From positions 1 to 31,349 of IMG/VR virus record IMGVR_UViG_3300037191_001127: a stretch of DNA of 31,349 bases; one strand, given 5' to 3'. The translations under genes were made by a program, and so were the position numbers. Shown in pieces: positions 664-30,093 of the stretch (within the stretch, counting starts at the first letter, position 1; each line of letters begins with the position of its first letter). The stretch is from a virus. The notes beneath the pieces are model-generated. The model ran no database searches. It was given only the letters and a program-made list of their open reading frames with translations, and was not told the DNA's origin.

Positions 664-1326
664 TTATCCTTTAATGTAAGTTGACTTAGAATCAATAGCA
701 ACGAAATACGTAACTTCATTACCTTTAAATTCAGATATACCCTTAGCACAAATAGTAACGCTGTAATCTTGCGGTAATAATTTAAGGTTATCTGTTTTAA
801 CTATAATCTTAAACGTGTCGCCAGTCTCGCCGATTTCAACTCCATAATCGTCTGCACCTTCGGTTGAACTATCAATTGCTTTAAGATAACATTTGTCGCC
901 ATCTCCGACAAATGCAACTTCAGAGAACTGCAAAACACCAGCTGCCTTAAGAACAGATTGAAGATCGTCCCATTTAACATCAACAACGACGTCTTGTGTT
1001 GGAATCTTGATTTCTTTAGCTGGTGGCGTGTGAATCATCGAAACATCAGCATATATATATTTTGTTCTGCGCTTACCTTCCGATATAATAAAGTGAGTAT
1101 CATTAAACTTAACATCCGGATCGCTATACAAACTCAAGATTGACAAGAATCTTGATAAGTCGTATATGCAAGCTTGAGATGGAATTGTCTCAGGAATATT
1201 GGCACTTGCGATAAGTGTCTTTTCAGGAGTAATCGTTTTAATAGTTTGACCTTCTTGCATTAATATTGACTTATTAATAGAAGAAAAACTTTTAAGGATC
1301 GTGATAGTTCTTTCAGAAAATTTCAT
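664..1326 (-). CDS. 45: Sliding clamp (DNA polymerase processivity factor), gp45-like
   Basis: Ring-forming processivity clamp. It holds the replicative polymerase on DNA and in T4 also activates late transcription. The length of 220 aa compares with 228 in T4. The N-terminus MKFSERTITILKSFSSIN matches the gp45 start, and the internal blocks ACIYDLSRFLSILSL (about 53-67) and the C-terminal KFKGNEVTYFVAIDSKSTY region follow the gp45 pattern. It has its own minus-strand promoter (1360-1388) and is followed closely by the 80-aa gene. In this genome the clamp is probably also the docking platform for modification enzymes, because three of them carry a polymerase-like C-terminal tail. Confidence 0.93.
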   Translation of the reverse strand: MKFSERTITILKSFSSINKSILMQEGQTIKTITPEKTLIASANIPETIPSQACIYDLSRFLSILSLYSDPDVKFNDTHFIISEGKRRTKYIYADVSMIHTPPAKEIKIPTQDVVVDVKWDDLQSVLKAAGVLQFSEVAFVGDGDKCYLKAIDSSTEGADDYGVEIGETGDTFKIIVKTDNLKLLPQDYSVTICAKGISEFKGNEVTYFVAIDSKSTYIKG

Positions 1327-2913: not shown

Positions 2914-2942
2914 ATTATAACATGTTTGTGTTTAAATGTCAA
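2914..2942 (-). promoter_or_regulatory. sigma70-type promoter for dexA-glycosyltransferase operon
   Basis: Minus strand: TTGACA (2942-2937), 17-bp spacer, TATAAT (2919-2914), about 29 nt before the dexA start. It lies immediately after the end of the C5-methyltransferase-fold gene. Confidence 0.85.
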
Positions 2943-2950
2943 CAATCATT

Positions 2951-4177
2951 TCAGAAAAATGATTCTAAACTTTGCTCTTTATCTGGTATATTCAAAGTTC
3001 TGGATGTTTCGTTTATGTTAGATTGTAATAAAAAATCAGTATCAGAAAATTGGCGCTTTCCTTCGAAAACAGCTTTAATTTCTAACACCATATCTTTAGC
3101 AGTTTGTAATGGAACATTCTGACAAATATGATTAGCAGATTTTTTAGGGTCTAACAATTCGTAATCTTGTGGTAATCCCATAATAGTCATTGCTTCGCGA
3201 TAATTAATATAACGATCTTCATATGGATGAGTAAGAACTGTCGGATAATGACCAACAAAAGCTCCAATATAATCTTTAGGAATAATAGTGCCACGTCGCA
3301 TTATATTGCCACCATCTTTTAGCTTATGATATTTTCGTTCACATTTTGGAACTTCTCTGTCGTATCCATTTTTTTCCATCCATTCACCAACCATCATATA
3401 ATCGTGACCTGAATTTATAATAATAGATTCTACATCGTTGCCTCGAACATTTTTAGTTTTTAATAACTCAAAATATTCTCTATGCGTAATACCACCATGA
3501 ATTACTTCAAGAAGATATCTATAGTAAGGATCGTCTTTGCTTGGAATTTTAGAATTAATTGGTTCTAACTGTGTACTACCAGTAGCGCTCATAATTACAT
3601 CTTCAATTTTTGTGTGTTCTTTGTTAATAAATTTAAGCATTGGTGCAGTATCACCAAACTCGCTTTTCTTCCAGAAGAAATAGAAAGTGCGTTTACGAAA
3701 TTGTGGAATACCATGTTTAATATTCTTAGTAAGATATAGACCCATAGAGTATCCATTATCGAGGCCAATTTTACGTAGTTTAGTTAACATAAACTCACCG
3801 ATCTTACCAACAAGAGCAGGAGCATTTTCTCCCCAAAATACACTCGGTTGTACGGTTTCTAGAATATGCTTGGCTGTTTTCTCCATCCATTGGTTATTTT
3901 GATTTTCAGCTCCGTGTTTAGAATGATATTGACTTAATCCAGCACAAGGACAGACACTCGATATAACATCAACTTTCTCATTAATATTTTTAGGAGCAAT
4001 ACTGTTCTCATCGTCAAGTACATGATAGGGTACTTCGTTATTCCAATAGTTTAGTAAGTGTTTTTCATTGTTTTCAAATCCTTTATAAGACAAAATGTAT
4101 TCTGGTTTAGTTCCAAATACTTCAGTAGATGCTAGTGCTTCGCCTCCTATAAGTGGTATGATCGTTGCGTGCTTCAT
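2951..4177 (-). CDS. C5-cytosine-methyltransferase-fold protein with altered SAM motifs and a clamp-binding-like tail
   Basis: A 408-aa protein with the later C5-cytosine methyltransferase motifs: motif IV CPCAGLS with the catalytic Cys78, motif VI GENAPAL (116-122, Glu117), motif VIII QFRKR (159-163), motif IX-like YREAMTIMGLPQDY (326-339) and motif X-like QNVPLQTA (353-360). Motif I reads IIPLIGGEALA, without the usual DLFxGxGG Phe and first Gly. The motif II acidic residue appears replaced (LSYKGF). The Cys-based attack on cytosine C6 could therefore be kept while SAM binding is altered. The protein ends SLESFF, like the polymerase tail. It is the last gene of the six-gene operon and starts with a 4-nt overlap. 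The fold call is firm; the reaction (methylation versus another C5 exchange on 5hmC) is open. Confidence 0.82.
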   Translation of the reverse strand: MKHATIIPLIGGEALASTEVFGTKPEYILSYKGFENNEKHLLNYWNNEVPYHVLDDENSIAPKNINEKVDVISSVCPCAGLSQYHSKHGAENQNNQWMEKTAKHILETVQPSVFWGENAPALVGKIGEFMLTKLRKIGLDNGYSMGLYLTKNIKHGIPQFRKRTFYFFWKKSEFGDTAPMLKFINKEHTKIEDVIMSATGSTQLEPINSKIPSKDDPYYRYLLEVIHGGITHREYFELLKTKNVRGNDVESIIINSGHDYMMVGEWMEKNGYDREVPKCERKYHKLKDGGNIMRRGTIIPKDYIGAFVGHYPTVLTHPYEDRYINYREAMTIMGLPQDYELLDPKKSANHICQNVPLQTAKDMVLEIKAVFEGKRQFSDTDFLLQSNINETSRTLNIPDKEQSLESFF

Positions 4178-5277
4178 TGAAAAAAATCCTCAATTGTTGT
4201 TTTATTAATTTTATTGTATTCAAGTCCTTGCCAATGAGGATAGTATTCACGAGATAAATGAACTGATTTTGGTCGCTCCATAGCTTTAAAATCAAGTTCA
4301 CCTAATTCATTATAATACGATGGAGTGAGCCATTCACGAAATTCAACACTCGTTCCTTGAACTCTTTTCATTGAGTATTCTTTAAAGTAAAGTCTTGCTG
4401 CGTTACGCTCAGCCCACGTACCATGAAATTTCTCACCAAGATACCATCCGCTTTTTGGAAGATTTCTGCGTTCGTTTTCGATAGGTAATAGTTCATAGAT
4501 CACTTTACTTTCCATATCCAAAGAATCGACTTGGTCGACATAACGATCAACAAGATCTCTAATAGCTTGTTTATGATCGTCCTGTCTACAAATGTGATGA
4601 CGTATATCAATGTTACCAAAGTAACATTCAATATCCTTAATGTCATTTTTATTTATGAAACTTTTTAAGCCTAATTCTAAGGCTCCATACAAAGTTTTAA
4701 ACGGAACTGAATTAACATTATATCCTTCACGATACATACAAATAGCATGACTATCACCGATCACTAAACCGCTCCAACTAGGATGTTGTGGTATAATTGT
4801 GATCGCTCTTTCTTGCATTGCTCTTAAATTATCAATATCAACTTCGAGAAATTCAGGAACCATTGTGTCAAGTGTACCATCTCGCTTTTCATGGCCAGTA
4901 ATCTTGTGCTCTAACATAGTAGCATAATCAGGCATATCATATCCAATAGAATAAACTTCACCTTTAAATTTAGAAATATTTCTAATATTGTAAGCATGAG
5001 GGAAATTTCGAGTTCCACCAAAAAAGTTTAGATCACCAGCGTCTGCTTTACGATCATTACCATGATAGATATATAATCTATCATATTCGTTAAAATCTTC
5101 TGTTTTGTTTGATTCTTTAGCTTCGGGACCTTGTACGCTTGGTCTAGATAAGCTTACTGAAATATCGTCTGTGTGATAGTGTTTAAGCAAATCAGCATAT
5201 ATAATTCCTTGTGCTGCCCTATGACTCGTTATCTGAAACGACATAGGGATGAATGGTGCTGCTATAATTGTTTTCAT
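4174..5277 (-). CDS. SGNH-hydrolase-like protein with clamp-binding-like tail
   Basis: A 367-aa protein whose second half carries the SGNH (GDSL-type) hydrolase signature: LVIGDSHAI with the nucleophile Ser176 (171-179), ECYFGNIDIRHHI (217-229) as a later block, and a likely catalytic His340 in SVHLSREYY. The first half (1-165) has no motif I recognise. SGNH enzymes are esterases or acyl transferases, so it may add or remove an ester group on a modified base or sugar; the substrate is unknown. The extreme C-terminus is TTIEDFFQ, matching the hydrophobic-x-x-Phe-Phe tail of the polymerase and of both neighbours. It starts 7 nt after the preceding gene and overlaps the next by 4 nt (ATGA). Confidence 0.7.
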   Translation of the reverse strand: MKTIIAAPFIPMSFQITSHRAAQGIIYADLLKHYHTDDISVSLSRPSVQGPEAKESNKTEDFNEYDRLYIYHGNDRKADAGDLNFFGGTRNFPHAYNIRNISKFKGEVYSIGYDMPDYATMLEHKITGHEKRDGTLDTMVPEFLEVDIDNLRAMQERAITIIPQHPSWSGLVIGDSHAICMYREGYNVNSVPFKTLYGALELGLKSFINKNDIKDIECYFGNIDIRHHICRQDDHKQAIRDLVDRYVDQVDSLDMESKVIYELLPIENERRNLPKSGWYLGEKFHGTWAERNAARLYFKEYSMKRVQGTSVEFREWLTPSYYNELGELDFKAMERPKSVHLSREYYPHWQGLEYNKINKTTIEDFFQ

Positions 5278-5284
5278 ATTTACC

Positions 5285-6451
5285 TCATGTAAAAAATTGT
5301 TGAAATGCTGCTTGAGAAATTTGTTCTTGCTCAGCCATATTTAGCATTTTTTCAATGTTTCTATCTCCTATACGGGCAACTTTACGTCTATCGCAAGCTT
5401 TTTTATCTTCGCGCAACTTACAAAAAATACCATATTGGCACATAGCAACCTCAGAACCATAAGTCATCATTTCGGTTTGATCTTTTTCAAGAATCTTTTT
5501 GCCTTCAAAATTTAAAATATTATGAGCAGATTCATGGATTTCAATATCGCCAAAACCAAAGAACTTTTGATTGTGTCTAAACCATATAACAAGATCGCCA
5601 CTGTTAATTAACTTATTTGTTGCGTTTGGAAACATCAACTTTAAAGTATATTGAGCACCAGGTCCAGGTTTAACGAAGTTATCATCATTAGTCCAGTTCA
5701 ACTCAGGGTTTACTGAATTTGAAGTAGCACAATGGAATCCATAATAACTTCCAATACCAGCGTTAGAAGTGAGTTCATTAAATGCTTCTTTAATAGAATT
5801 ACAACTAATTAAACGATCAAAAGTTCCATCTTCGCATAAACCAGCTACCCAATCCATAATATTTCCAGGGTGCTTTCTTTCTTCTTCGGTTGTAACATTA
5901 AAACGGCTTTGTTGATATTTGTTTGCAGCACCCCAGAGAGAAGTACGCAATTCAGTAGAACCATATATAGGCAAACCAGCAATTTTTGAAAGTTTTAAAT
6001 TTTCTCGTATACGAGAGCGCTCGTCAGTAGTAAAATAGTTTTCAAAATCAACATGAGCAGTTTTAACGTCATTATTACGAGTGGCAATCTGGTGAATACC
6101 TCTAGCTCCATAGAAGTGAGATATAATTGTGTTACCAATCTTATTGTGTAGAGATAAAGTGTCGCTTGATAATCCTACTATATTTTCAGCGATATAAACC
6201 ATACGATCGTCGTATGTAATCATCGGATGAAAGTATTCTGTATTTGGATTAAGAGCATACTCTTTATAATCGTATGTTGTAATAAGACCCCTTTGCCATT
6301 CCGATCTCTTATTAACTTCGCATACAAAATATTTAAAGTCAAGAAATTTCTCAACGTCGCACAAATCAAAATATTTATCCAGTGGATAATTTGAGTCAGC
6401 AGATTTAAATCCTTTAGGTACTTCGTATGATTTATGTGTACCATCAATCAT
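5285..6451 (-). CDS. aGPT-Pplase / 5-hmdU DNA kinase helical-domain-like DNA base hypermodification protein
   Basis: A 388-aa protein. Its core resembles the helical (DNA-glycosylase-like) domain family that Aravind and colleagues named aGPT-Pplase and that includes the helical domain of 5-hmdU DNA kinases. The signature elements are a GIGSYYGFHCAT block (about residues 232-243), a downstream NDDNFVKPGPGA segment, and a C-terminal SEVAMCQYGIFCKLRE block like the family's Cys-containing last motif. The N-terminal block FKYFVCEVNKR.EW is present but less like the textbook pattern. Characterised relatives act on hydroxymethylated pyrimidines in phage DNA. The last residues QAAFQQFFT fit a clamp-binding peptide almost exactly (QxxFxxFF). 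It overlaps the FkbM gene stop by 1 nt (TAATG). The family is assigned by motif memory, so confidence is moderate. Confidence 0.62.
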   Translation of the reverse strand: MIDGTHKSYEVPKGFKSADSNYPLDKYFDLCDVEKFLDFKYFVCEVNKRSEWQRGLITTYDYKEYALNPNTEYFHPMITYDDRMVYIAENIVGLSSDTLSLHNKIGNTIISHFYGARGIHQIATRNNDVKTAHVDFENYFTTDERSRIRENLKLSKIAGLPIYGSTELRTSLWGAANKYQQSRFNVTTEEERKHPGNIMDWVAGLCEDGTFDRLISCNSIKEAFNELTSNAGIGSYYGFHCATSNSVNPELNWTNDDNFVKPGPGAQYTLKLMFPNATNKLINSGDLVIWFRHNQKFFGFGDIEIHESAHNILNFEGKKILEKDQTEMMTYGSEVAMCQYGIFCKLREDKKACDRRKVARIGDRNIEKMLNMAEQEQISQAAFQQFFT

Positions 6452-7194
6452 TATTTTACTCTTCTACGCAAGAATAAGTCTATGCTCCACAAAGTACCTT
6501 CTGTTGTATATCCAACTTTTTCATACAGTACAGCGTCTTTTTTATTAAAACTGCCTTTAAACCCAACAGATGGAACAAAACTAACTATTTCAAAATGTTC
6601 AATTATATTATCGTAATATCGCTCGAGTTCTACTATACCAGCTCTACCATGCAACTCAAACGCCAACTCCTGAATATAGTCTGGAAATATACCTTCGCAA
6701 TCAGCTAACCAATCAATTTCTGCTCCTTCTATATCACATTTGACATGAGTAGGTTTATATTTTTCCAACAGTTCATACACATTATAATTAACAACATCGT
6801 ATGCAGTGCCATTCTTTCTAGTAGCTGTTTGACTTTTACTATTAATAGTTCCAGAGCATTTTGATCTTACAGCATTAGATTGAAAAAACGTTAAATGTTC
6901 TGATTCAGAAATAGAGGCTACACCCAACAAATATAAGTTATTACTTCCGTCTATGGAATTAACAGTTGTTAATTCCATATTTTCTGGATCTGGTTCTACT
7001 GCTATGTATTGTTTAACTTCTTTTTCGTTTGCCATCCTAGTAAATCCACCAATATTAGAACCAAGATCAAGCACTACTGATTTTTTATCAAGTGAGAAGT
7101 GGCTATAATGTTTTAGTGAATCGCGAATCATATCACGATCAATACCCGGGCCTGTTCTAATTTTATAGCCTTTATACATTTCAGTATCCCCCAT
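6451..7194 (-). CDS. FkbM-type SAM-dependent methyltransferase
   Basis: A 247-aa Rossmann-fold methyltransferase of the FkbM type. Motif I is VVLDLGSNIGGF (40-51), the acidic ribose-binding residue lies in AVEPDP (Glu67), and the typical KCDIEGAE block is at 152-159; the C-terminus WSIDLFLRRR is the usual FkbM ending. The family O-methylates sugars or polyols in several natural-product and glycan pathways. It sits between the inositol-phosphate synthase/HAD pair and the DNA-modification-like genes, so a hydroxyl of the transferred group is a reasonable guess for the target. The start at 7194 has a good AGGAGA site about 10 nt upstream and overlaps the HAD gene by 14 nt; Met6 (7179) is an alternative start. 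Confidence 0.8.
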   Translation of the reverse strand: MGDTEMYKGYKIRTGPGIDRDMIRDSLKHYSHFSLDKKSVVLDLGSNIGGFTRMANEKEVKQYIAVEPDPENMELTTVNSIDGSNNLYLLGVASISESEHLTFFQSNAVRSKCSGTINSKSQTATRKNGTAYDVVNYNVYELLEKYKPTHVKCDIEGAEIDWLADCEGIFPDYIQELAFELHGRAGIVELERYYDNIIEHFEIVSFVPSVGFKGSFNKKDAVLYEKVGYTTEGTLWSIDLFLRRRVK

Positions 7195-7558
7195 GGCGCA
7201 TATTCTCCTTTTCAGTTAAGTTGTGGTTTAATAATACAACGTGAATTGATGTAACCTTTTTGATTATATCAGCTTGTATTGGATCATCTTCAAAGTGGAT
7301 ATCTATAGGACAACCTAATGTAATAAGAGCTGAAATGATGTCTGCTTTATGGTGACCAGAACTTTCTCTGGTCTTTTGTTTAAATGGTAAGGGATTAAAA
7401 TAAACTTTATTATTAATCCCTTTCTGCTGCAGCATCCTAATAGTTTCTGGTTTTTCTTCAATAGAACGACCAGTAATAATCAAGTCGTTCGGCCCAGGGT
7501 AAACGCCGTCATGGTCTTTACCCATATAAATCACACCATCAATATCAAAAGTATTCAT
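7181..7558 (-). CDS. Small HAD-superfamily phosphatase-like protein
   Basis: A 125-aa HAD-like protein with all four motifs: FDIDGVI (4-10, nucleophile Asp5 and Asp7), TGR (29-31), Lys71 in GHHKAD, and FEDD (89-92). There is little room for a cap domain, so a fairly accessible or large phosphorylated substrate is possible. Small HADs of this layout occur in many phages without known substrate. Here the gene starts 14 nt after the inositol-1-phosphate synthase gene, which makes dephosphorylation of inositol phosphate the simplest hypothesis. A role on a nucleotide or on phosphorylated DNA bases is the alternative. It overlaps the next gene by 14 nt. Confidence 0.75.
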   Translation of the reverse strand: MNTFDIDGVIYMGKDHDGVYPGPNDLIITGRSIEEKPETIRMLQQKGINNKVYFNPLPFKQKTRESSGHHKADIISALITLGCPIDIHFEDDPIQADIIKKVTSIHVVLLNHNLTEKENMRHGGY

Positions 7559-7572
7559 AATATATTTTTCCT

Positions 7573-8853
7573 TTATTCGTAATCTGAAGTATCAGCTTGG
7601 AATGTATAAAGCAAATCTTCAACTTGTGGGTAATTTTCGGCGAGTTGCGGACGAGTAAGATCAGTTAAAATCCTACGAGCTAATGCTTCGCATTCGAATT
7701 TTGAATCAGCAGTTTTTAGCTGAGTTGGTGGTGTCTTTTGAGAGTGTGCCGATGGACCACGTAAGTAACCAACAATACCCATCTCAGCAGCAACTTTGCA
7801 AAAACGAACTGCATCAAATACAATTCCAGCACTATTAGGAGAATCTTGAACAGATAAACGAGCAGTCAATTCATAGCGAGCCCCAGCCCATCCCCAGAAT
7901 ACCATATCAATATTAGCAATCTTATTATCTGAACCAATGTATTCATCACCTGGTTTTTGGAAAACTGTAAGTGACGGACCAGCATACATTGTAAGACCAG
8001 CAATATCTTTACCACGTACAGCAGCTTGACCATTTAAAACATTTTCTTTAGAGATATGTTTATTTTTTAAACGATCTTTAGTTGCCATGTTTAAGAAGTC
8101 AGTATTTGCAGTACGACCAGTACGGCGCATATCACCTTGAGTAGTTCCACAAGCTTTGTTTTCTTGGATGTGTTGAGTAACCAACAATCCAGAATCCATA
8201 ATTGAACCTTGTAACACCTCAGATAAACGTGACGCGCCGTAATCAGAACGCATGTCAGAACCAACAACTGTTACGCCATGTTCGATAGCAAGTCTCTCAA
8301 GTTCCATTGCATCTTTAGTAGATATATATGTTGGCATACAGTTAACAATATGGACACCTGCGCGAATAGCATTTTCAATGTGCCAACGAGCTGCTGTTTC
8401 AGAACCAACTGGCATATAGTTAAGTAATACATCAACTTTGTTATCTTTAAGAATTTGAATGTATTCATTAGCCGTGATAGCCAGAGTTTCTGTATCTTCT
8501 ACGAAGGATATATCAGGATGTAAATCGTGCATGTGAGGTGCTATACCATCAAATGTTGGCGATCTGTATACTGTCGATTTAGATGCTATACAAGTCAAAT
8601 TATGACTTGGAGGATATACTTCCATGTTACAATTTGGTTTAGCATAGATTGAGTTATTTAATCGTTGGCCAACTTTACGGGCATCGACATCAAATCCAAC
8701 AACAAAATTAAAGTTTTTAGCAGAAAAACCACCGATGTCTTCAAACATAAGACCTATGGTATCTTCTGGATTTTCTTTATAGTATTCTACACCTTGAATA
8801 AGTGCTGATGAGCAATTACCGACGCCGGCAATAGCGATATTAATTTTAGACAT
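7573..8853 (-). CDS. ino1: Myo-inositol-1-phosphate synthase
   Basis: A 426-aa enzyme of the bacterial/archaeal myo-inositol-1-phosphate synthase type. It would convert glucose 6-phosphate to inositol 1(3)-phosphate using bound NAD. Visible blocks are the N-terminal dinucleotide-binding loop IAGVGNCSSALIQG (8-21), FDVDARKVG (54-62), VDVLLNYMPVGSETA (140-154), the TDFLNM segment (251-256, counterpart of GGNxDFLNM) and the highly diagnostic SVQDSPNSAG (334-343). The length is between archaeal (about 370) and eukaryotic (above 500) forms. The start has a GAGGAAG site. It is the first gene of the six-gene operon, with its own promoter (8936-8964) and a roughly 80-nt leader. A dedicated inositol-phosphate supply in a phage is unusual. 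Confidence 0.88.
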   Translation of the reverse strand: MSKINIAIAGVGNCSSALIQGVEYYKENPEDTIGLMFEDIGGFSAKNFNFVVGFDVDARKVGQRLNNSIYAKPNCNMEVYPPSHNLTCIASKSTVYRSPTFDGIAPHMHDLHPDISFVEDTETLAITANEYIQILKDNKVDVLLNYMPVGSETAARWHIENAIRAGVHIVNCMPTYISTKDAMELERLAIEHGVTVVGSDMRSDYGASRLSEVLQGSIMDSGLLVTQHIQENKACGTTQGDMRRTGRTANTDFLNMATKDRLKNKHISKENVLNGQAAVRGKDIAGLTMYAGPSLTVFQKPGDEYIGSDNKIANIDMVFWGWAGARYELTARLSVQDSPNSAGIVFDAVRFCKVAAEMGIVGYLRGPSAHSQKTPPTQLKTADSKFECEALARRILTDLTRPQLAENYPQVEDLLYTFQADTSDYE

Positions 8854-8882
8854 TTTCTTCCTCTATTATTTCAGTTTATTAA

Positions 8883-8918
8883 TGTGGGATTGGCTGGGTT
8901 TAAGCAGAGTAGCCCACA
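8883..8918. other. Possible leader hairpin before the inositol-1-phosphate synthase gene
   Basis: The leader contains TGTGGG...CCCACA (6 bp), and an overlapping pairing GGCT...AGCC using some of the same bases; the alternatives are mutually exclusive in part. It lies between the -10 box at 8936-8941 and the start codon at 8853. It could be a regulatory or stabilising structure; there is no U-tract, so it is not an obvious terminator. Confidence 0.35.
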
Positions 8919-8935
8919 GTTGTTTAATTGATACT

Positions 8936-8964
8936 ACTATATCACAAGTTGATTATAATGTCAA
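8936..8964 (-). promoter_or_regulatory. sigma70-type promoter for the six-gene operon
   Basis: Minus strand: TTGACA (8964-8959), 17-bp spacer, TATAGT (8941-8936). It overlaps the last codon of the DUF1353 gene. I see no comparable promoter between here and 2942, so this one probably drives all six downstream genes. Confidence 0.75.
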
Positions 8965-9323
8965 CTTTTATTTAATATTTTTAGTATTGTTGAATATAAT
9001 CTTACTGCGGCAGCCATTAAAAATCTACGCACTCTAGATATATTTAGCTTTTTCAGTACAATCTTAAACTCTCTGTCAGCTTCTACGCGAGATACTTGTG
9101 TTAATAGATAATCATGAATTATGGCTGCAGGAAAGTATCTGTGAATGGGTGGTAGTATGCTCCAAAATATCCTTGGTATAGTCAAACCGTCAGTCACAAA
9201 CCCACTTGGAACTTCAAATCCAGCATATTTAAAATCTCCAATCAACACATATCTTGTTACGTCAGATCTACTCTCTGGTAGTAATATAACCGCACTTATT
9301 GTTGGTAATAAATCATCTTCCAA
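8961..9323 (-). CDS. DUF1353 family protein
   Basis: A 120-aa protein with the DUF1353 pattern: FVTDGLTIPRIFWSILPP (42-59), then FPAAIIHDYLL (64-74). The family is frequent in phages and its function is unknown; proposals for structural or lysis-related roles are not testable here. The C-terminal part is rich in basic and hydrophobic residues. It starts 3 nt after the dCMP deaminase gene and is probably cotranscribed with it. Confidence 0.8.
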   Translation of the reverse strand: MEDDLLPTISAVILLPESRSDVTRYVLIGDFKYAGFEVPSGFVTDGLTIPRIFWSILPPIHRYFPAAIIHDYLLTQVSRVEADREFKIVLKKLNISRVRRFLMAAAVRLYSTILKILNKS

Positions 9324-9326
9324 TTT

Positions 9327-9779
9327 TTATTCTCCTATGTTTACATATGTTATATTTATGCCAGCTTCTAGAAGCATATTCTTTGTTATCTTATAAGCAT
9401 CACACCATCTTACTGGTATTTCTTCATCAGCAGACCAAAATACTTCTTTGATTCCAGTTTGAATAATACCTTTAGCGCATTCAGAACAAACTGGTAAACC
9501 ATGCACATATAATGAACTACCATCAAGGCTAACACCACTATACGTAGCGTTATATATACAGTTCATTTCAGCGTGTACGACATATTTATACTTAGTCTCG
9601 CGGTCATTATATCTTTCTTCAGTATCTCGAATACCCCGAGGGAATCCATTGAAACCTTGAGCTAATACCTGACCTTTAGAACCAATAGCAACTGCTCCGA
9701 TTTTACGAGAAGGATCTCTGCTCCATGAAGCAATATTCTTTGCTAAATGAAGGTAACGTTTATGCCACTTATCACACAT
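9327..9779 (-). CDS. cd: dCMP deaminase
   Basis: A 150-aa zinc-dependent deoxycytidylate deaminase, converting dCMP to dUMP for dTMP synthesis. The zinc and catalytic motif is HAE (69-71), and the second zinc motif is LPVCSEC (95-101). NGFPRG (44-49) is typical of the dCMP deaminase subfamily. It is shorter than T4 Cd (193 aa). Together with the dCMP hydroxymethylase it competes for the dCMP pool and sets the balance between thymine and hydroxymethylcytosine. It is transcribed from the promoter at 9809-9837. Confidence 0.92.
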   Translation of the reverse strand: MCDKWHKRYLHLAKNIASWSRDPSRKIGAVAIGSKGQVLAQGFNGFPRGIRDTEERYNDRETKYKYVVHAEMNCIYNATYSGVSLDGSSLYVHGLPVCSECAKGIIQTGIKEVFWSADEEIPVRWCDAYKITKNMLLEAGINITYVNIGE

Positions 9780-9840: not shown

Positions 9841-10590
9841 TTAATTATATTGACTATTCGGATATTTTGCAGCATAGTCGGGTTTAGAAATATGAAATTT
9901 ACCTGTTTTTGAATAATAATCAACTAAATAGAAATTTCTTTCATATATGTGCATATTGGCTACTTGCCAATACAGATTACCAATAGCAATAGGAGTATTT
10001 TCACATCCAACATTGTATTCGTTAACAGCGAGTTCCATAAGATATTTAGCCCAAGCATAATCATTGCGATAACCAGCCCAAGAGTCGTTGCTTCGCATCA
10101 TGCTTACCATATGTAATTTATTATCACGTATATAAAACAGTTGACCTAAAGTACATATGAAATCGTTTTTGCCGCTTTCGTTAAAATCAACCCATACAGA
10201 AGGTCTAGTGTATGTTAGTTGAGCACGTCTACTATCAGGGTTATTGATTAGTTCTTTTACAGCATTTTCAAATTGATTATAGTACTTTGGTTCAAACAAA
10301 AGATGACCATAATTCGAATTGATTTCGCCATAAGAATTTGCTGAGTAAGCCCACGCAGCTGGTTTCTTACCATAAATTTTTTCTAATGTATTAATATTAG
10401 TAGAACAACTATTGTACCATTTTATTTCAGCATCAATATATTCTTGATTAGGAATACCAAAAATAGCAGGTTCATCAGCAATAAAGCTAGCACCTAACAA
10501 CTCGATCGTTTTAGCACCAGTTTTATCAATAGTGAAACGTTCTGCAGCAAGTTCTTCTTTAAAGTATTTACGTATATCTTCAACTATCAT
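9841..10590 (-). CDS. 42: dCMP hydroxymethylase, gp42-like
   Basis: A 249-aa thymidylate-synthase-fold enzyme very similar to T4 gp42 (246 aa). It would make hydroxymethyl-dCMP from dCMP and methylene-tetrahydrofolate. Shared blocks include DKTGAKTIELLGASFIADEP (22-41), GEINSNYG (88-95), NPDSRR (117-122), the catalytic Cys146 in DFICT, MRSND (165-169) and GYRNDYAW (173-180). Asp177 in GYRND matches the gp42 residue that selects cytosine over uracil. The enzyme implies that cytosines in this phage DNA are replaced by 5hmC, which is the substrate context for the modification operon. It overlaps the preceding gene by 1 nt (TAATG). Confidence 0.93.
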   Translation of the reverse strand: MIVEDIRKYFKEELAAERFTIDKTGAKTIELLGASFIADEPAIFGIPNQEYIDAEIKWYNSCSTNINTLEKIYGKKPAAWAYSANSYGEINSNYGHLLFEPKYYNQFENAVKELINNPDSRRAQLTYTRPSVWVDFNESGKNDFICTLGQLFYIRDNKLHMVSMMRSNDSWAGYRNDYAWAKYLMELAVNEYNVGCENTPIAIGNLYWQVANMHIYERNFYLVDYYSKTGKFHISKPDYAAKYPNSQYN

Positions 10591-12101: not shown

Positions 12102-12845
12102 TTATATTACTTTGCGTTTTCGAAAACTCATATTGTCAAAACCGCGACCAGTGATTCTGTGTTTATCTTCTATTTCAATAAGAGGTGGACTGTTACCACC
12201 AAGCACACCAGATATAAATTGAGCAATTTCACTAAACGCAATATAAGTGTCTTTAACTCTAAAAAACTCAAATTGCTTTAGATTTATGTCTTTATAAAAA
12301 ATAATGTTATTTGACTTAATATTACTATTTAAAGGGCGTGGTATGCGCATACCAACCATGCCAACTGGAGTTCCAATTTTATGAATCAAATCATGCGATA
12401 TTTTTACTTCATCAGAAAAGAATGAATTCATTTTTTTATGTGAACGAAGCGCGCTAACATATGCAGTTCTTTTTGAATCTTTTAAGATCTTAAACTGATT
12501 ATAATTATGTGTATTATTATATAGATCAACGATAGCTAAGTATTCATACATTGAATAGCAATGATAAACTGGATCTTTCATATTATAATTATTTGCTAAA
12601 GATGGACTGTCGCGTGACCATGATATTTTAGCTCCTGGGTAAAATTTACCACAAAAATAGATATAATATAAACGTACAGTTAATACACTAGAACATCTAT
12701 CTCGATAAACATCATGTATTTTAAAATTTAATTCATTTGAGTTAAATTCTATTTCAGAATCTTTTCTCTTATAGATAATAGTTTTGTCGATACCGTGTTG
12801 CGACACGCAATCATAATAATCGTGGGTTTTACTTAAAATAAGCAT
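12102..12845 (-). CDS. Conserved phage hypothetical protein
   Basis: A 247-aa protein of a family I recognise only as a conserved T4-like phage hypothetical. It begins MLILSKTHDYYDCVSQHGID, contains a short YYIYFCGKFYPG segment (about 60-71), and ends with KHRITGRGFDNMSFRKRK. The conserved Asp/His/Arg/Cys residues might be functional, but no fold can be assigned from the sequence. Two tandem promoters precede it (12875-12902 and 12975-13003). Confidence 0.75.
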   Translation of the reverse strand: MLILSKTHDYYDCVSQHGIDKTIIYKRKDSEIEFNSNELNFKIHDVYRDRCSSVLTVRLYYIYFCGKFYPGAKISWSRDSPSLANNYNMKDPVYHCYSMYEYLAIVDLYNNTHNYNQFKILKDSKRTAYVSALRSHKKMNSFFSDEVKISHDLIHKIGTPVGMVGMRIPRPLNSNIKSNNIIFYKDINLKQFEFFRVKDTYIAFSEIAQFISGVLGGNSPPLIEIEDKHRITGRGFDNMSFRKRKVI

Positions 12846-12874
12846 GAGTTAATTCCTAATAAATTTACGAGACT

Positions 12875-12902
12875 ATTATAACACAATAAAAATAAATGTC
12901 AA
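12875..12902 (-). promoter_or_regulatory. sigma70-type promoter, proximal, for gene at 12102-12845
   Basis: Minus strand: TTGACA (12902-12897), 16-bp spacer, TATAAT (12880-12875), about 30 nt before the start codon. Confidence 0.8.
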
Positions 12903-12974
12903 CGTTTATTTTAATTATATCAAGTACCTACTTGCATCGTTTAAACATATAGTATTATTATCGATTATATATCC

Positions 12975-13003
12975 ATTATACAACAGTTGAATGTTAATGT
13001 CAA
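12975..13003 (-). promoter_or_regulatory. sigma70-type promoter, distal tandem copy
   Basis: Minus strand: TTGACA (13003-12998), 17-bp spacer, TATAAT (12980-12975). The flanking 24 nt around the -35 box repeat those of the proximal promoter 101 bp away with one difference. No gene lies between the two promoters. Confidence 0.7.
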
Positions 13004-13083
13004 CGTTTATTTTAATCATATAAGACTTTATTAACATTTATAAGCTTCGATGAGTGTGTTTAAAGATCACACATATTAACTAT

Positions 13084-13091
13084 TATAAATA
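13084..13091 (+). promoter_or_regulatory. T4-type late promoter
   Basis: TATAAATA, the exact -10 element recognised by gp55-type late sigma factors, 50 nt before the start of the candidate internal head protein gene. No TTGACA-type box lies at the right distance. Confidence 0.65.
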
Positions 13092-13140
13092 AGATAGCTG
13101 TATAATAAGAACATATAATATTACATACAAAGGAATACAA

Positions 13141-13464
13141 ATGAAAACTTTCGCTGCATTTATTACAGAATGCATCACTGAAGAAAATGATTCTCGATTA
13201 AAAAGGGCTGGAGTAAAAGGTTATAATAAACCAAAGAAAACACCAAGTCATCCAACCAAGAGTCATATTGTTGTAGCCAAAGAAGGCGATAAAATCAAAA
13301 CAATACGCTTTGGTGAGCAAGGTTCTTCAACTGCAGGAGAACCTAAAAAAGGTGAATCTGATAATATGAAAGCAAAGCGTAAATCATTCAAAGCCAGACA
13401 CGCTAAGAATATAAAAAAAGGTAAAATGTCTGGCGCATATTGGGCTGACAAAGAAAAATGGTAA
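13141..13464 (+). CDS. Small basic phage protein with capsid-targeting-like N-terminus
   Basis: A 107-aa, strongly basic protein. Residues 12 onward include KGYNKPKKTPSHPTKSHIVV, IRFGEQG and a Lys/Arg-rich C-terminus (KAKRKSFKARHAKNIKKG) that I recognise as a conserved marine phage family. The N-terminus MKTFAAFITE|C resembles the T4 capsid targeting sequence MKTYQEFIAE found on internal head proteins, ending in an Ile-x-Glu site of the prohead-protease type. I infer a DNA-associated protein packaged in the head and possibly injected. The late promoter TATAAATA upstream fits this. The basic part may simply bind DNA; the packaging idea needs virion data. Confidence 0.8.
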   Translation: MKTFAAFITECITEENDSRLKRAGVKGYNKPKKTPSHPTKSHIVVAKEGDKIKTIRFGEQGSSTAGEPKKGESDNMKAKRKSFKARHAKNIKKGKMSGAYWADKEKW

Positions 13465-13478
13465 ATTAATAGATAATG

Positions 13479-13652
13479 CTATTTCTTAGAAGCAATATGC
13501 TTTGCTTTCCATCCATATATAGTTTCGCCAAATGAGATAAAATCACCTTTAATAGTTACACCCGTCTCTAACACACTTATGATTTTTCTCCATCCTTTAG
13601 ATGTTTTTATTTTTTCTCCTGTTTGAACAGTAGATCCCAATTTATAATTCAT
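13479..13652 (-). CDS. Hypothetical small protein
   Basis: A 57-aa reading frame from the ATG at 13652 to TAG at 13479, starting MNYKLGSTVQTGEKIKTSKG and containing ISFGETIYGWKAKHI. The pattern of short beta strands with turns and Gly-Trp pairs looks like a real coding sequence and not chance. It resembles small proteins of marine phages, but I cannot assign a function. It is convergent with the basic head protein candidate and lies 31 nt downstream of the next minus-strand gene. Confidence 0.65.
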   Translation of the reverse strand: MNYKLGSTVQTGEKIKTSKGWRKIISVLETGVTIKGDFISFGETIYGWKAKHIASKK

Positions 13653-13683
13653 TTATTTAATCCCAGTTAGTAAAATTTTAAAT

Positions 13684-14037
13684 TTAACCTTTAGCAAATC
13701 GAGCTTTTTTATTTTTTCGAGGAACAGGCCACTTTGGTTTATGCATGCTTATATAAGTATCAAAGTTTTGATTTTCTTTTTTCATATGTTGCTGATCATT
13801 TTTGAATACGAAATATTCTCTTGTACTAGTTCTAGTACCAATTGAAACACTATCGTAATATGGTTCAATAAGCTCAATATCAGAATCTAACAATTCAACA
13901 CAAACATCGTGATTGACATCTTTTGTAAACTGATGCCAGACACCATTACCACTCAAGTTATAACCAACATATCTAAATATATTTTCATCATATTTAAATT
14001 TATACAAACTATCTATTTTAAGATCAAGCACTTTCAT
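13684..14037 (-). CDS. Hypothetical protein
   Basis: A 117-aa protein not recognised. The N-terminal part (LKIDSLYKFKYDENIFRYVGY) looks like a small beta barrel with aromatic residues, and the C-terminus is very basic (PRKNKKARFAKG). It is driven by the minus-strand promoters at 14068-14096 and 14131-14159. Confidence 0.7.
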   Translation of the reverse strand: MKVLDLKIDSLYKFKYDENIFRYVGYNLSGNGVWHQFTKDVNHDVCVELLDSDIELIEPYYDSVSIGTRTSTREYFVFKNDQQHMKKENQNFDTYISMHKPKWPVPRKNKKARFAKG

Positions 14038-14067
14038 AATTTATTTCCTTAACTTATTTGATAATAC

Positions 14068-14096
14068 TATAATAACATATTTTAACTAAATGTCAA
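14068..14096 (-). promoter_or_regulatory. sigma70-type promoter for gene at 13684-14037
   Basis: Minus strand: TTGACA (14096-14091), 17-bp spacer, ATTATA as -10 (14073-14068), about 30 nt before the start. Confidence 0.65.
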
Positions 14097-14107
14097 TAAA
14101 TAATTGT

Positions 14108-14115
14108 TATAAATA
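14108..14115 (+). promoter_or_regulatory. Possible T4-type late promoter
   Basis: TATAAATA on the plus strand, about 110 nt upstream of the second capsid-targeting-like gene. It lies inside the divergent promoter region, so this one is less certain than the other late sites. Confidence 0.4.
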
Positions 14116-14130
14116 ATAACCGATAAACTT

Positions 14131-14159
14131 ATTATAACACAATTTAATAACGATGTAAA
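14131..14159 (-). promoter_or_regulatory. sigma70-type promoter, second upstream copy
   Basis: Minus strand: TTTACA (14159-14154), 17-bp spacer, TATAAT (14136-14131). It would give a tandem promoter for the gene at 13684-14037. Confidence 0.5.
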
Positions 14160-14174
14160 TAAATATTTTTAATA

Positions 14175-14203
14175 TTGACATTTAATTTAAACGAGTTTAT
14201 AAT
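14175..14203 (+). promoter_or_regulatory. sigma70-type promoter for gene at 14226
   Basis: TTGACA (14175-14180), 17-bp spacer, TATAAT (14198-14203), then an AAAAGGA ribosome site and the ATG at 14226. Confidence 0.8.
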
Positions 14204-14225
14204 AAACTCATAAAAAGGAATAAAC

Positions 14226-14768
14226 ATGAAATCATTTAAAAGTTACATAAACGAATCAATTAAACCAAACTCAGTTTTAATAAAAATGGATAGAAGTCGC
14301 CTTGACCCAGACGTTCAACGGCAAACATTGCAATTTGATCCTAGACAAATCAAAAAAGCACTTATTAAAATATTAAGTGATGATGCTAAAAAAGCAATGA
14401 AAACTTCGTATATAGATGATGCAGACTTTGTTAACAGTAAAACTGACTCAACAATGGGTACTATACGTAAAGATAATACACTTGCTGATTTGGCAGCACA
14501 AATAGAAAAATGGACTAAAGCAAACGCAGCTGCGTTTGCTCCTAAACAACCTAAACCAATAGTAGATATTAAATCTGATACAAGAGCTATAATTACAACA
14601 AGTGATGAGATGGGTGCTGAAATCAAGAAAAAATTACACAATGCAAAAACAGGAATTAAAATTAGAGTAATGAAACGCAAATCTGGTGCAATGGTTTATA
14701 TTGATACTAATGATGAAGAAAGTCTAAACAAAACTATTGAACAAGTTGAGAAAATGTTGGATATGTAA
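14226..14768 (+). CDS. Candidate internal head protein (capsid-targeting-like N-terminus)
   Basis: A 180-aa protein starting MKSFKSYINE|S, the same pattern as the gene at 13141 and as the T4 capsid targeting sequence MKTYQEFIAE, with Ile-x-Glu where prohead protease would cut. The body is a mixed alpha/beta, highly charged protein (helical RQIKKALIKILSDDAKKAMK, then a C-terminal IKIRVMKRKSGAMVYID unit) with no catalytic motif I recognise. It has both a sigma70-type promoter and a possible late promoter upstream. I infer a packaged internal protein; the alternative is a coincidental N-terminal match. Confidence 0.78.
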   Translation: MKSFKSYINESIKPNSVLIKMDRSRLDPDVQRQTLQFDPRQIKKALIKILSDDAKKAMKTSYIDDADFVNSKTDSTMGTIRKDNTLADLAAQIEKWTKANAAAFAPKQPKPIVDIKSDTRAIITTSDEMGAEIKKKLHNAKTGIKIRVMKRKSGAMVYIDTNDEESLNKTIEQVEKMLDM

Positions 14769-14794
14769 TATTTTTATTTAAAATGAGAAGTAAA

Positions 14795-15120
14795 ATGATA
14801 AAGCAACCAAGTTCTGTAGGATTTATAGGTACATTTAACGAGATTATAACTAACTATCAAAAAGTATTTTGTAGAGAATATAATCTCAGTGAGAAAAAAC
14901 ACTATATTATAAATCCAAAAATGAAAGGTGTTAGGGTAAATATATTAAATGTACTGGAATATATCCACAATATGAATTTAGCGCATCGCAAGTTGGGTCA
15001 GAATTTAGAATTTATAATAGTACATCTGGGCCGATTGAAATGGTAGGAAGCACAGGTGGACATCACGAAACTGACGATAAATATATATTTGAAATAATAA
15101 GATGTCAGTCAAAAGATTAA
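14795..15120 (+). pseudogene. Frameshifted small gene (one base short in a G-run)
   Basis: The reading frame from the ATG at 14795 (GAGAAG site just upstream) stays open to about 14936 with sensible sequence (MIKQPSSVGFIGTF). It then runs into an unconvincing tail ending at 15046. The other frame gives a coherent second half from 14936 to TAA at 15118-15120 (GIYPQYEFSASQVG, FRIYNSTSGPIEMVGSTGG, KYIFEIIRC). Adding one G to the GGG run at 14934-14936 would join them as GVRGKY. Predicted intact product about 108 aa, beta-rich, function unknown. Either a real recent mutation or a sequencing/assembly error. Confidence 0.65.
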
Positions 15121-15144
15121 TAACAAATTATATTTAAATAAACG

Positions 15145-15173
15145 TTAACATTTCGTTCTCGCTATGATATAAT
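15145..15173 (+). promoter_or_regulatory. sigma70-type promoter for topoisomerase large-subunit gene
   Basis: TTAACA (15145-15150), 17-bp spacer, extended -10 TGATATAAT with TATAAT at 15168-15173, then the recurring leader ATAGTTACATAAACTGATAA and an AAAGGA ribosome site. Confidence 0.85.
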
Positions 15174-15198
15174 AGTTACATAAACTGATAAAGGATAA

Positions 15199-27552: not shown

Positions 27553-30093
27553 ATGAGTAATAATTTTTATACATCAGTTGAAAGATATGGCAATAATATG
27601 CTGTGGCGCGGATACAAAGATGGCGAACGTTTTTCAGAGCGTGTTCCATTTGGTCCAACACTTTATTTACACACTAAGAAATCAGAAGGAGATTACAAAT
27701 CACTATATAGCGATAAGCGATTGAATCCACAAAAGTTTGATTCAATGGGAGACGCTAAAGAATTTATTGCACTTTATAAGGAAGTGAGTAACTTCAAAAT
27801 ATACGGTAACACTAACTATGTATCTCAGTTTATTCAAGAAGAATATCCTGACGATATTACTTTTGATATTTCACTAGTTAACATATGCTCATTCGATATT
27901 GAAGTTGATATATCAGATGGCTATCCAAATATTGAAGAAGCTGATAAAGAAATAACTTCTATATCATACAAGTCTTCTAAGTCTAACAAATATTTTCTGT
28001 TAGGTCGTAAAGACTTCGATAAAACTAAGACTATAACCGGTATTGATCCAGCTGATATTGTCTTTGTTAAATTCGAAAGTGAAGTAGCAATGTTATCTCG
28101 TTTTATCGACTTATGGAAAGCTGATTATCCTGATGTAGTTACCGGTTGGAATGTTGAATACTTCGATATTATGTATATTGTAACTCGAGTGATGCGACTG
28201 TTTGGTGAAGAAAAAGCCCGTGACTTCTCTCCTTGGAGATCAATAAAAAAGACATCTCGCGAATTCTTTGGTAAAGAACAATCAACTTATTCAATATCTG
28301 GTATATCAATAATTGATTACATGGATGCGTTTAAAAAGTTTGGTTATAAGTATGGTCCTCAGGAATCATTTAAACTTGATCATATTGCTCACGTCATACT
28401 TGGTGAAAAGAAATTAGATTATTCTGCTTATGGTACTCTTACTGATTTGTATGAACAAAATCCACAGTTATATTTAGATTATAACTTACAAGATACTCGA
28501 CTTATTCAAAGATTCGAAGAAGAAACTGGTTTACTATCATTAGTTATGACTGTTGCTTATTCAGGTGGTGTAAACTATAATGATGCATTTGGTACTGTTG
28601 GTATATGGGAAAGTACAATTTACCGCAAACTTATTAAAGATAAGATTGTACCTCCAGTTAAAGGTAGCCCTGGAATTCGCTCTAATCTTGTTGGTGGTTT
28701 TGTTAAAGATCCCAAAGTTGGGATGCATCCGTGGATTGTATCATTCGATTTAAACAGTCTGTATCCGCATTTGATGATGCAATTTAACATGTCACCAGAA
28801 ACATATCTTCCACACGAACACGAATATGTTACTCAAGAAATGGTTTTAAACCGTGAATATAAGAATAATAATAAAGATATGTCAGTTGGTGCTAATGGCT
28901 CGTGTTTTGATAATAATAAACTCGGTGTTATCCCTGAAATAATCGCAACTTATTATGGTAATCGTAAAGTTATTAAGACAGAAATGCTTGAAGTTGAAAA
29001 GTTAGTTGAAATAGAAAAAGATCCCGTTAAACTAAAAGAACTTAAGAAACAAGCCAGTCAATTACATAACCAGCAAATGGCTATAAAGATCGCCATGAAC
29101 AGCCTTTACGGTGCTGTCGCAAATATCTACTTCTTGTATTATATTAATGATATGGCTGAAGCAATTACTACGTCAGGCCAGTTGGCAATTCGTTGTGCTG
29201 AAAAATCAGTTAATGAATACTTGAATAAAATACTCAAGTCAACATCCAAAGATTATATTGTTTATATTGATACGGATTCTATATATGTAGACTTTGGTCC
29301 ATTAATAGAAGCTGCTTTTGGTACAACTGATATTTCTCGTGATGAAGGAGAACAGTTCCTTGATAAGATTTGTGGTACTAAAATTGAAAAAGTAATCGAA
29401 GATGGTTATGTTAATTTAGCAAAAGACTTAGGCGCCTATCGTAATGCTATGGTAATGAAGCGCGAAAAGATTACAGATAAATCAGTGTTTATAGCTAAGA
29501 AGCGTTATATCATGAATACGTTAAACAGTGAAGGTGTTCATTATGATAAACCTAAAATCTCTGTGACTGGTTTAGAATCTGTTCGATCTTCGACACCTCA
29601 AGTCTGTCGCGATAAAATGAAAAAGTCTTTCGAAGTAATTATGAATGGTAGTGAAGAAGATGTTCAAGAGTTTATTAGCGACTTCAAATCTGAGTTTTAT
29701 TCGTTACCTGCTCACTCTGTAGCTAAGACGTCAGGTACTGATAATATTGGTAAATATTCTGATAAAAAATCAATATACAAAAAGGGTTGTCCATTCCATG
29801 TTCGTGGTGCTTTGCTATATAATAAGATGATAGATGATTCTGGTTTAGCTAAACAGTATCAACATATAATTGGTGGAGATAAAGTTAAAGTTCTGTATTT
29901 GAAAGTTCCAAATCCATTACGCGAAAATATTGTATCGTTCCCGGGCGTGTTACCACAAGAATTGGGTTTAGACAAGTACATAGATTACGATCTGCAATTC
30001 GAGAAAGTATTTCTTGCACCAGTTCGAGCAATTGTTGAAGCAATAGGTTGGTCTGCTGAAAAACGCGACACGCTTGATGAATTCTTTTGCTAA
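27553..30093 (+). CDS. 43: Replicative DNA polymerase, gp43-like (family B)
   Basis: An 846-aa family B polymerase with 3'-5' exonuclease (T4 gp43: 898 aa). Exonuclease motifs: FDIEVD (114-119, Asp115, Glu117), GWNVEYFD and YNLQDTRLI. Polymerase motifs: A DLNSLYPHL (about 398), B KIAMNSLYG (about 512) and C YIDTDSIYVD (about 570). The C-terminus is DTLDEFFC, the expected position for the peptide that binds the sliding clamp, as in T4/RB69 gp43 (SLFDMFDF). The same tail type appears on three genes of the modification operon. It has its own promoter and leader. Confidence 0.95.
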   Translation: MSNNFYTSVERYGNNMLWRGYKDGERFSERVPFGPTLYLHTKKSEGDYKSLYSDKRLNPQKFDSMGDAKEFIALYKEVSNFKIYGNTNYVSQFIQEEYPDDITFDISLVNICSFDIEVDISDGYPNIEEADKEITSISYKSSKSNKYFLLGRKDFDKTKTITGIDPADIVFVKFESEVAMLSRFIDLWKADYPDVVTGWNVEYFDIMYIVTRVMRLFGEEKARDFSPWRSIKKTSREFFGKEQSTYSISGISIIDYMDAFKKFGYKYGPQESFKLDHIAHVILGEKKLDYSAYGTLTDLYEQNPQLYLDYNLQDTRLIQRFEEETGLLSLVMTVAYSGGVNYNDAFGTVGIWESTIYRKLIKDKIVPPVKGSPGIRSNLVGGFVKDPKVGMHPWIVSFDLNSLYPHLMMQFNMSPETYLPHEHEYVTQEMVLNREYKNNNKDMSVGANGSCFDNNKLGVIPEIIATYYGNRKVIKTEMLEVEKLVEIEKDPVKLKELKKQASQLHNQQMAIKIAMNSLYGAVANIYFLYYINDMAEAITTSGQLAIRCAEKSVNEYLNKILKSTSKDYIVYIDTDSIYVDFGPLIEAAFGTTDISRDEGEQFLDKICGTKIEKVIEDGYVNLAKDLGAYRNAMVMKREKITDKSVFIAKKRYIMNTLNSEGVHYDKPKISVTGLESVRSSTPQVCRDKMKKSFEVIMNGSEEDVQEFISDFKSEFYSLPAHSVAKTSGTDNIGKYSDKKSIYKKGCPFHVRGALLYNKMIDDSGLAKQYQHIIGGDKVKVLYLKVPNPLRENIVSFPGVLPQELGLDKYIDYDLQFEKVFLAPVRAIVEAIGWSAEKRDTLDEFFC

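Follow-up and report, generated by a model that had tools for sequence, protein, structure and literature searches.

The virus record IMGVR_UViG_3300037191_001127, analysed over its whole length of 31,349 bases (hereafter the window), contains a compact six-gene operon on its minus strand, together with genes of T4 type that encode a gp45-type clamp, type II topoisomerase subunits, a family B DNA polymerase and a gp42-type hydroxymethylase. In order of transcription the six open reading frames (ORFs) encode a myo-inositol-phosphate synthase (MIPS), a HAD phosphatase, an FkbM-family methyltransferase, a protein of the HMUDK_hel family, an SGNH-like protein, and a protein with the fold of C5 cytosine DNA methyltransferases (C5-MTase fold). 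These genes and the promoter-like sequences on either side of them are listed here with the matches that identify them.

8936..8964, minus strand: sigma-70-like promoter before MIPS (TTGACA-17-TATAGT, 11/12, extended TG; consensus match only)
7573..8853, minus strand: MIPS/Ino1-like myo-inositol-phosphate synthase, 426 aa, precursor supply (PF01658, 8.2e-8; TIGR03450, 1.6e-58)
7181..7558, minus strand: small HAD phosphatase, 125 aa, presumed inositol-phosphate phosphatase (PHROG_415, polynucleotide kinase, 2.9e-6, and motifs)
6451..7194, minus strand: FkbM-family methyltransferase, 247 aa, optional tailoring (TIGR01444, 2e-15; PF05050, 1.7e-6)
5285..6451, minus strand: HMUDK_hel-family protein, 388 aa, with a predicted all-helical fold resembling PUGT and helix-hairpin-helix (HhH) glycosylases, presumed DNA transferase (PF18723, 2.4e-12)
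4174..5277, minus strand: SGNH-like protein, 367 aa, N-domain like T4 beta-glucosyltransferase (BGT) and C-domain SGNH (PF09198 in relatives, Foldseek, VIA)
2951..4177, minus strand: C5-MTase-fold protein, 408 aa, constant gene of the locus (PF00145, 5e-21)
2914..2942, minus strand: sigma-70-like promoter starting the next unit, just past the C5-MTase stop (12/12; consensus match only)

Along the operon MIPS and HAD are 14 nt apart, HAD overlaps FkbM by 14 nt, FkbM overlaps HMUDK_hel by 1 nt, SGNH begins 7 nt past HMUDK_hel and in turn overlaps the C5-MTase-fold gene by 4 nt; all six ORFs and every junction agree with the packed operon of the original prediction, which had been made from this sequence alone. 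That prediction had also placed a single strong promoter at the front and none inside; in a consensus scan of the same strand the front site matches at 11 of 12 positions, and the best site within the operon reaches 9/12, with none better. Weak promoter-like sites number 42, compared with 42.7 expected from shuffles. Since a 12/12 site follows directly after the C5-MTase stop, the operon unit is bounded on both sides. Three of the operon proteins recur with 100% identity on a viral contig of 77,450 bases with the same gene order. The family labels proposed earlier hold, with profiles or motifs backing MIPS, HAD, FkbM, HMUDK_hel and C5-MTase, and structure backing SGNH.

Viral contigs were scanned with four operon proteins, yielding more than 200 loci (numbered L001 onwards) from which profiles were built. 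In locus counts (such as those out of 92) a contig fetched repeatedly is counted each time; distinct hydroxymethylase clusters were counted separately. The choice of queries biases the sample, whose frequencies should not be read as abundances. The gene order that recurs among relatives is hydroxymethylase, dCMP deaminase, MIPS, HAD, in some cases FkbM, HMUDK_hel, SGNH and C5-MTase fold, followed 3′ by an exonuclease gene in some cases, an unknown gene and the clamp. This arrangement is found in dozens of diverged viral contigs and is thus not due to chance; in a few contigs the order differs, SGNH standing before MIPS in L100, L133 and L137, for example. In the window the genes that precede the operon are the following.

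9841..10590, minus strand: dCMP hydroxymethylase of T4 gp42 type, 249 aa, makes hydroxymethyl-dCMP (hm-dCMP) (PF00303, 6.5e-13; PHROG_160, 2.6e-49)
9327..9779, minus strand: dCMP deaminase, 150 aa, bordering the swap slot described below on its upstream side (PF00383, 1.9e-18)

Between the deaminase and the operon lies a gene for a DUF1353 protein (8961-9323, TTG start) with a match to a tail-chaperone PHROG, which among the loci examined is found in this virus only.

The hydroxymethylase aligns with T4 gp42 over its length, through RSND...GYRNDYAW, the RNDYAW segment being common to both. At the position that decides the base, which we take to be Asp in dCMP hydroxymethylases and Asn in thymidylate synthases, 122 of 123 relatives have Asp, the residue that marks dCMP hydroxymethylases. 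The window enzyme is of this gp42 (dCMP) type and not of the dUMP type that would provide hydroxymethyluracil (hmU) as the base. Together, the gp42-like alignment and the conserved Asp make 5-hydroxymethylcytosine (5hmC) the likely base of the viral DNA, as had been proposed from the neighbouring dCMP hydroxymethylase gene.

The region between the hydroxymethylase/dCMP deaminase genes and the C5-MTase-fold gene can be described as a swap slot, as its contents vary among T4-like relatives. In loci retrieved with a profile of the C5-MTase-fold protein, the gene for that protein is constant and those between it and dCMP deaminase differ. In the window the slot holds MIPS, HAD, HMUDK_hel and SGNH, together with FkbM. 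Elsewhere it is occupied by the DNA alpha-glucosyltransferase AGT (PF11440, 3.3e-73), by a GT4-like enzyme, other glycosyltransferases and GalE-like and GLF genes, by an unclassified enzyme (v2) that is called a glycosyltransferase from the company of an epimerase and a UDP-galactopyranose mutase, or by two unknown proteins (c15 and c16) with a pyridoxal phosphate (PLP) enzyme and then the SGNH gene. When distinct gp42 clusters are counted by cassette, 29 are of the inositol class, 19 PLP, 11 AGT, 11 v2, 5 v9 and 1 v22. The classes almost never co-occur, only L212 combining MIPS with a glycosyltransferase. A clamp tree of 66 rows shows about 26 changes of cassette class, and even near neighbours can carry different classes (an inositol cassette next to a v2 one); scored as inositol versus any other class there are 7 changes, at least 3 of which are forced by starred branches. 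In T4 itself the b-gt gene stands directly after gene 42, matching this gene order. The sharing of the slot with a known family of 5hmC glucosyltransferases is what most strongly indicates that 5hmC is decorated by the inositol cassette too. The role in DNA decoration that had been proposed earlier gains from the replacement of AGT by the cassette in the same slot, and we regard such a role as very probable. As for the linkage on which the original prediction was to be judged, MIPS, HAD, HMUDK_hel and SGNH are indeed linked in these phages, yet parts of the set are also found separately: SGNH occurs in PLP cassettes and in Aeromonas phage 25, and MIPS-HAD in the phages Moby and Cr30.

Several other slot contents were observed. 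At L064:4994-8004, c15 and c16 stand with a PLP enzyme like phage M6 gp52 before the SGNH gene, an arrangement found in about 20 distinct phages; searches of Pfam, PHROGs and NCBIfam found nothing similar to c15 or c16, and neither protein matched HMUDK_hel or the M6 transferases by hhalign. At L180, L181, L185 and L200 the slot reads v10-v2-v7, that is epimerase, the unclassified v2 enzyme and UDP-galactopyranose mutase, from which a galactofuranose decoration is predicted. In more than one locus the slot opens with a small protein resembling the uracil-DNA glycosylase superfamily (L180:6639-7025 and L064:4600-5007).

The precursor genes point towards an inositol-type moiety. Among solved structures MIPS is closest to Mycobacterium tuberculosis Ino1 (1gr0, 2.7e-48), the second match being a synthase of a five-membered cyclitol phosphate (6k96, 2.1e-27); its score against TIGR03450, the mycothiol INO1 model, is below the equivalog cut-off of that model. 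K265, K269, K311 and K373, which we take to be the active-site lysines, are invariant across 16 phage homologues. The HAD label derives only from the PHROG_415 match and from motifs, of which DxDG is kept in 53/53 homologues, and the protein partners MIPS in 89/92 loci, with the same pairing in Cr30 and Moby. This pairing and the Ino1 match agree with the supply of an inositol-type precursor suggested earlier. FkbM occurs at 14 loci only, all of them inositol cassettes (13 with MIPS, the 14th, L005, being a short re-fetch of the window), and most MIPS cassettes are without it. FkbM, a regular step in the original prediction, is optional; where present, it may O-methylate the cyclitol.

The HMUDK_hel protein scores 47.3 bits against PF18723, where the curated cut-off is 25, and its AF2 model is all-helical and confident (pLDDT 92). 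The best structural match by VIA is the glycinyltransferase that acts on 5-phosphomethyl-deoxyuridine (5-PmdU) in phage PaMx11 (8z2n; Z 10.8, root-mean-square deviation 3.8, 226 residues aligned, to be read with the caution due to helical folds), followed by HhH DNA glycosylases (Z 9.2), and the top matches form one coherent group. A Foldseek search of the same model gave no significant match in the PDB, so that the fold match comes from the second aligner alone. A bacterial genome also contains a lone HMUDK_hel homologue (44 percent), next to a phage-type integrase on a contig of Crocinitomix algicola (L215:7965-8996).

The SGNH-like protein is chimeric. Over residues ~1-160 it is similar to the N-domain of T4 beta-glucosyltransferase (Foldseek, 1qkj, probability 0.99, E 5e-3, with agreement from hhalign), and 21 of 42 homologues match PF09198, the best at 6e-5. 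Residues ~165-347 take the SGNH fold, matching SGNH hydrolases with Z 12-13 by VIA and resembling O-acetyl esterases and PatB O-acetyltransferases; the SGNH label, for which Pfam gives no support in the window protein itself, is in this way confirmed by structure. S176, N222 and H340 are invariant, and GDSH is present in 99/99. Neither AGT nor a complete BGT was matched in the operon by Pfam or PHROG, the only trace being this BGT-like N-domain.

Three of the operon proteins end in a short tail that they have in common with the phage DNA polymerase, and which may dock onto the sliding clamp. The two replication proteins concerned are located as follows.

664..1326, minus strand: gp45-type sliding clamp, which lies downstream of the operon and to which the tails presumably dock (PF09116, 1.2e-15)
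27553..30093, plus strand: family B DNA polymerase, 846 aa, ends in TLDEFFC and serves as tail-motif reference (PF00136, 1.3e-29)

The tail has a form like [S/T]-[L/I]-[E/D]-x-F-[F/L]; in the window it reads TTIEDFFQ in SGNH and QSLESFF in the C5-MTase-fold protein, and AAFQQFFT in HMUDK_hel, which fits only a looser form. The strict motif was found at 92/131 distinct C-termini of the three enzymes (79 with the looser criterion set apart) and in 8/11 of the polymerase cluster, versus 5/1202 others, counts that describe and do not test, as the motif was defined after inspection. Similar tails end T4 gp43 (SLDFLFG) and gp55 (SLDFLYEAND), both of which we take to be clients of gp45. These similarities suggest that the three enzymes could be tethered to the clamp by their C-termini. 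The recruitment of an hmC-modifying enzyme to the clamp has a precedent, as T4 alpha-glucosyltransferase binds gp45, which confirmed a 2004 report cited in the same work, where the balance of glucosylation was attributed mostly to expression (PMC13216743). The T4 enzyme itself is without this tail. We gave up the view that all DNA-acting enzymes carry the tail, since it is found in 1/13 AGT and 0/14 v2 enzymes and is absent from c15 and c16. In one case, L137, the polymerase (12703-15195), SGNH and HMUDK_hel are together without a clamp-type tail.

The C5-MTase-fold protein stands apart from the rest of the operon. Its gene is constant across inositol, AGT and other glycosyltransferase cassettes and accompanies gp42 in every untruncated locus, so that the candidate role of coupling inositol to hmC was dropped, and its place in an inositol pathway, as first proposed, is not upheld. 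When the family was compared with M.HhaI (reference sequence verified against the PDB), the catalytic Cys (PC), the Glu (ENV) and QxRxR were present in 51/51 aligned sequences, and family-wide PCAGLS is found in 98/98 and ENAP in 96/98. The canonical F.G.G is found in 0/98, and positions of the S-adenosylmethionine (AdoMet) site are replaced (G20 by L in 51/51, E40 by S or T in 51/51, F18 by I or V, and likewise D60 and L100); the N-terminal alignment is of low identity, and the acidic residue is absent in either plausible register. C5-MTases also add and remove formaldehyde at C5 without AdoMet, as a side reaction in vitro. Our inference is a role that does not need AdoMet and is linked with hydroxymethylcytosine in general. 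It is possible, though we think it rather doubtful, that the protein is an ordinary AdoMet-dependent methyltransferase acting on leftover cytosines or a specific site, independently of decoration: the PC, ENA and QxRxR motifs are invariant and an aromatic residue is kept near the adenine-stacking position, yet five residues of the M.HhaI AdoMet site are replaced, F.G.G is missing throughout, and the gene is tied to gp42 in every untruncated locus. A cytosine-C5 enzyme without an AdoMet site that is always paired with a hydroxymethylase is a directly testable puzzle.

For the cassette itself, the inositol-type moiety is probable rather than assured, and several points weigh against the reading as a whole. 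The Z of 10.8 for HMUDK_hel is under the level that the tool treats as safe for helical folds; the SGNH gene, present also in PLP and galactofuranose-type cassettes, is not inositol-specific; the tail motif is post hoc and mostly lacking from AGT and v2 enzymes of the same slot; and no kinase domain, including a P-loop kinase of 5-hydroxymethyldeoxyuridine (5hmdU), was found in the six operon proteins, which leaves the operon without an activating kinase. The match of MIPS to a five-membered-cyclitol synthase allows for a different cyclitol, and the similarity of the SGNH domain to O-acetyl esterases and PatB O-acetyltransferases would also suit an acylated one; such a variant on a decorated 5hmC (an Ari2-like synthase, or SGNH acylation) is improbable, given the far better match to Ino1 (1gr0) and the TIGR03450 score, even below its cut-off.

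Somewhat less probable still is the attachment of an amino acid by HMUDK_hel, as in its thymidine relatives, with inositol as second-step acceptor or uninvolved. Its closest fold is a glycinyltransferase, and the PLP cassettes share SGNH and carry a PLP enzyme homologous to M6 gp52, but the inositol cassette has no amino-acid-tailoring gene and its MIPS-HAD pair is almost always found with HMUDK_hel. That MIPS, HAD and FkbM form an auxiliary metabolic set (for an osmolyte, lipid or surface inositol) merely lying beside DNA-modification genes is the least probable of these: MIPS is a common cellular enzyme and the Moby pair occurs without gp42 or HMUDK_hel, yet MIPS stands with HMUDK_hel in 85/92 loci and almost excludes other decoration cassettes, and in Moby and Cr30 the pair lies beside queC/dpdA/queE or ADDT genes.

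We therefore favour, as the probable though not firmly established reading, an interchangeable, inositol-based cassette by which a T4-like phage would decorate 5hmC. Judging from its family, gp42 would make hm-dCMP that is incorporated into DNA. MIPS would convert glucose-6-phosphate to inositol phosphate, from which the HAD enzyme would take off the phosphate, and in a minority of phages FkbM may methylate the cyclitol. HMUDK_hel, whose predicted fold resembles that of the enzyme placing glycine on 5-phosphomethyl-dU, could then join the cyclitol to the 5-CH2 group of 5hmC in DNA. SGNH may bind hmC-DNA through its beta-glucosyltransferase-like N-domain and either activate the hydroxyl (for example by acylation replacing the missing kinase) or acylate or deacylate the product; the roles given here to HMUDK_hel and SGNH are proposed ones. 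The C5-MTase-fold protein, as constant partner of gp42 and not of inositol, would perform AdoMet-independent covalent chemistry at C5, and all three tailed enzymes would be recruited to fresh DNA by the clamp. The linear scheme that runs from precursor through dephosphorylation and methylation to transfer and finishing is not supported as originally written. A more specific scenario, that marine T4-like phages make a cyclitol de novo and place it on 5hmC through a kinase-free, clamp-tethered PUGT-like transferase, along with AdoMet-independent chemistry of the constant C5-MTase-fold enzyme at C5 of cytosine or 5hmC in the DNA (such as formaldehyde addition to residual cytosine), is offered only tentatively. 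The increment for inositol on 5hmC is +162.05, as it is for glucose; the two being isomers, the mass measurement first suggested is ambiguous, and mass alone cannot decide.

Hypermodification of hmC is known in phages as a kind, and the inositol variant appears undescribed; no literature on inositol-modified phage DNA was found in a search that most subscription papers and preprints lay outside, so an earlier prediction is possible. If the reading is right, inositol joins glucose and arabinose as a phage decoration of 5hmC, and an ether-type coupling by an enzyme like those of thymidine hypermodification, without a kinase, would be new chemistry. The swap slot also offers a practical rule for predicting further decorations (galactofuranose-type, PLP-type) from sequence.

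Related arrangements in other phages would lend independent support to inositol as a DNA building block. In Caulobacter phage Cr30 (L001:6732-11257) MIPS and HAD neighbour a TAGT-like glycosyltransferase gene and a gene for an amino-acid:DNA transferase (ADDT; PF18724, 1.3e-52), and no match to gp42 was found in the genome. In Stenotrophomonas phage Moby (L002:9001-13621) MIPS and HAD lie directly upstream of queC, dpdA-like and queE genes, and a link of inositol to 7-deazaguanine DNA is possible. Aeromonas phages 44RR and AS4 encode SGNH and HMUDK_hel as a single polypeptide, beside an SGLT-type sodium:solute symporter; that the 44RR symporter imports inositol is not supported, its closest relatives being glucose/galactose transporters, which counts against an inositol decoration. 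Phages 44RR, 31 and 25 have gene 42 and no known glucosyltransferase genes, and further modification of their hmC has been an open question (PMC2993671), for which the cassette now gives candidate genes. Aeromonas phage 25 has a UDP-galactopyranose mutase-like gene, a v2-family enzyme (PHROG_14998) and SGNH in a row (L219:1776-5047), an arrangement that suggests galactofuranosyl-5hmC.

The fused ORF233c of 44RR has both domains, occurs in a phage that carries gp42 and ends in a clamp-type tail (CSLDGLFAI); it differs from the window system in that MIPS-HAD is absent, the symporter is adjacent and no C5-MTase-fold relative was found in Aeromonas phage records. The M.HhaI-type enzymes share family and all C5-activation residues with the C5-MTase-fold protein, which is set apart by its replaced AdoMet site, clamp-type tail and invariant dCMP hydroxymethylase linkage. 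With the thymidine hypermodification of M6, ViI and PaMx11 (HMUDK, ADDT/PUGT, PLP) the window shares the HMUDK_hel family and perhaps a PUGT-like fold, but its base is probably 5hmC rather than 5hmU and it has an inositol synthase in place of P-loop kinase, radical-SAM or PLP genes; the M6/SN1 set includes a kinase, unlike the window operon (PMC9476957). Arabinosyl-5hmC of RB69 type is an alternative hmC decoration in a T4-like phage (PMC6024577), and RB69 is thought to use glycosyltransferase and nucleotide-sugar genes, which the window operon is without. The T4 system of gene 42 and the alpha- and beta-glucosyltransferases has in common with the window the dCMP hydroxymethylase and the neighbourhood after gene 42 near gp45; relatives of the window hold AGT in the slot, and the window SGNH protein keeps a BGT-like N-domain. 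It differs from the window cassette, which has no complete glycosyltransferase and would instead make its precursor de novo through MIPS and HAD and use a PUGT-like helical protein and an SGNH domain.

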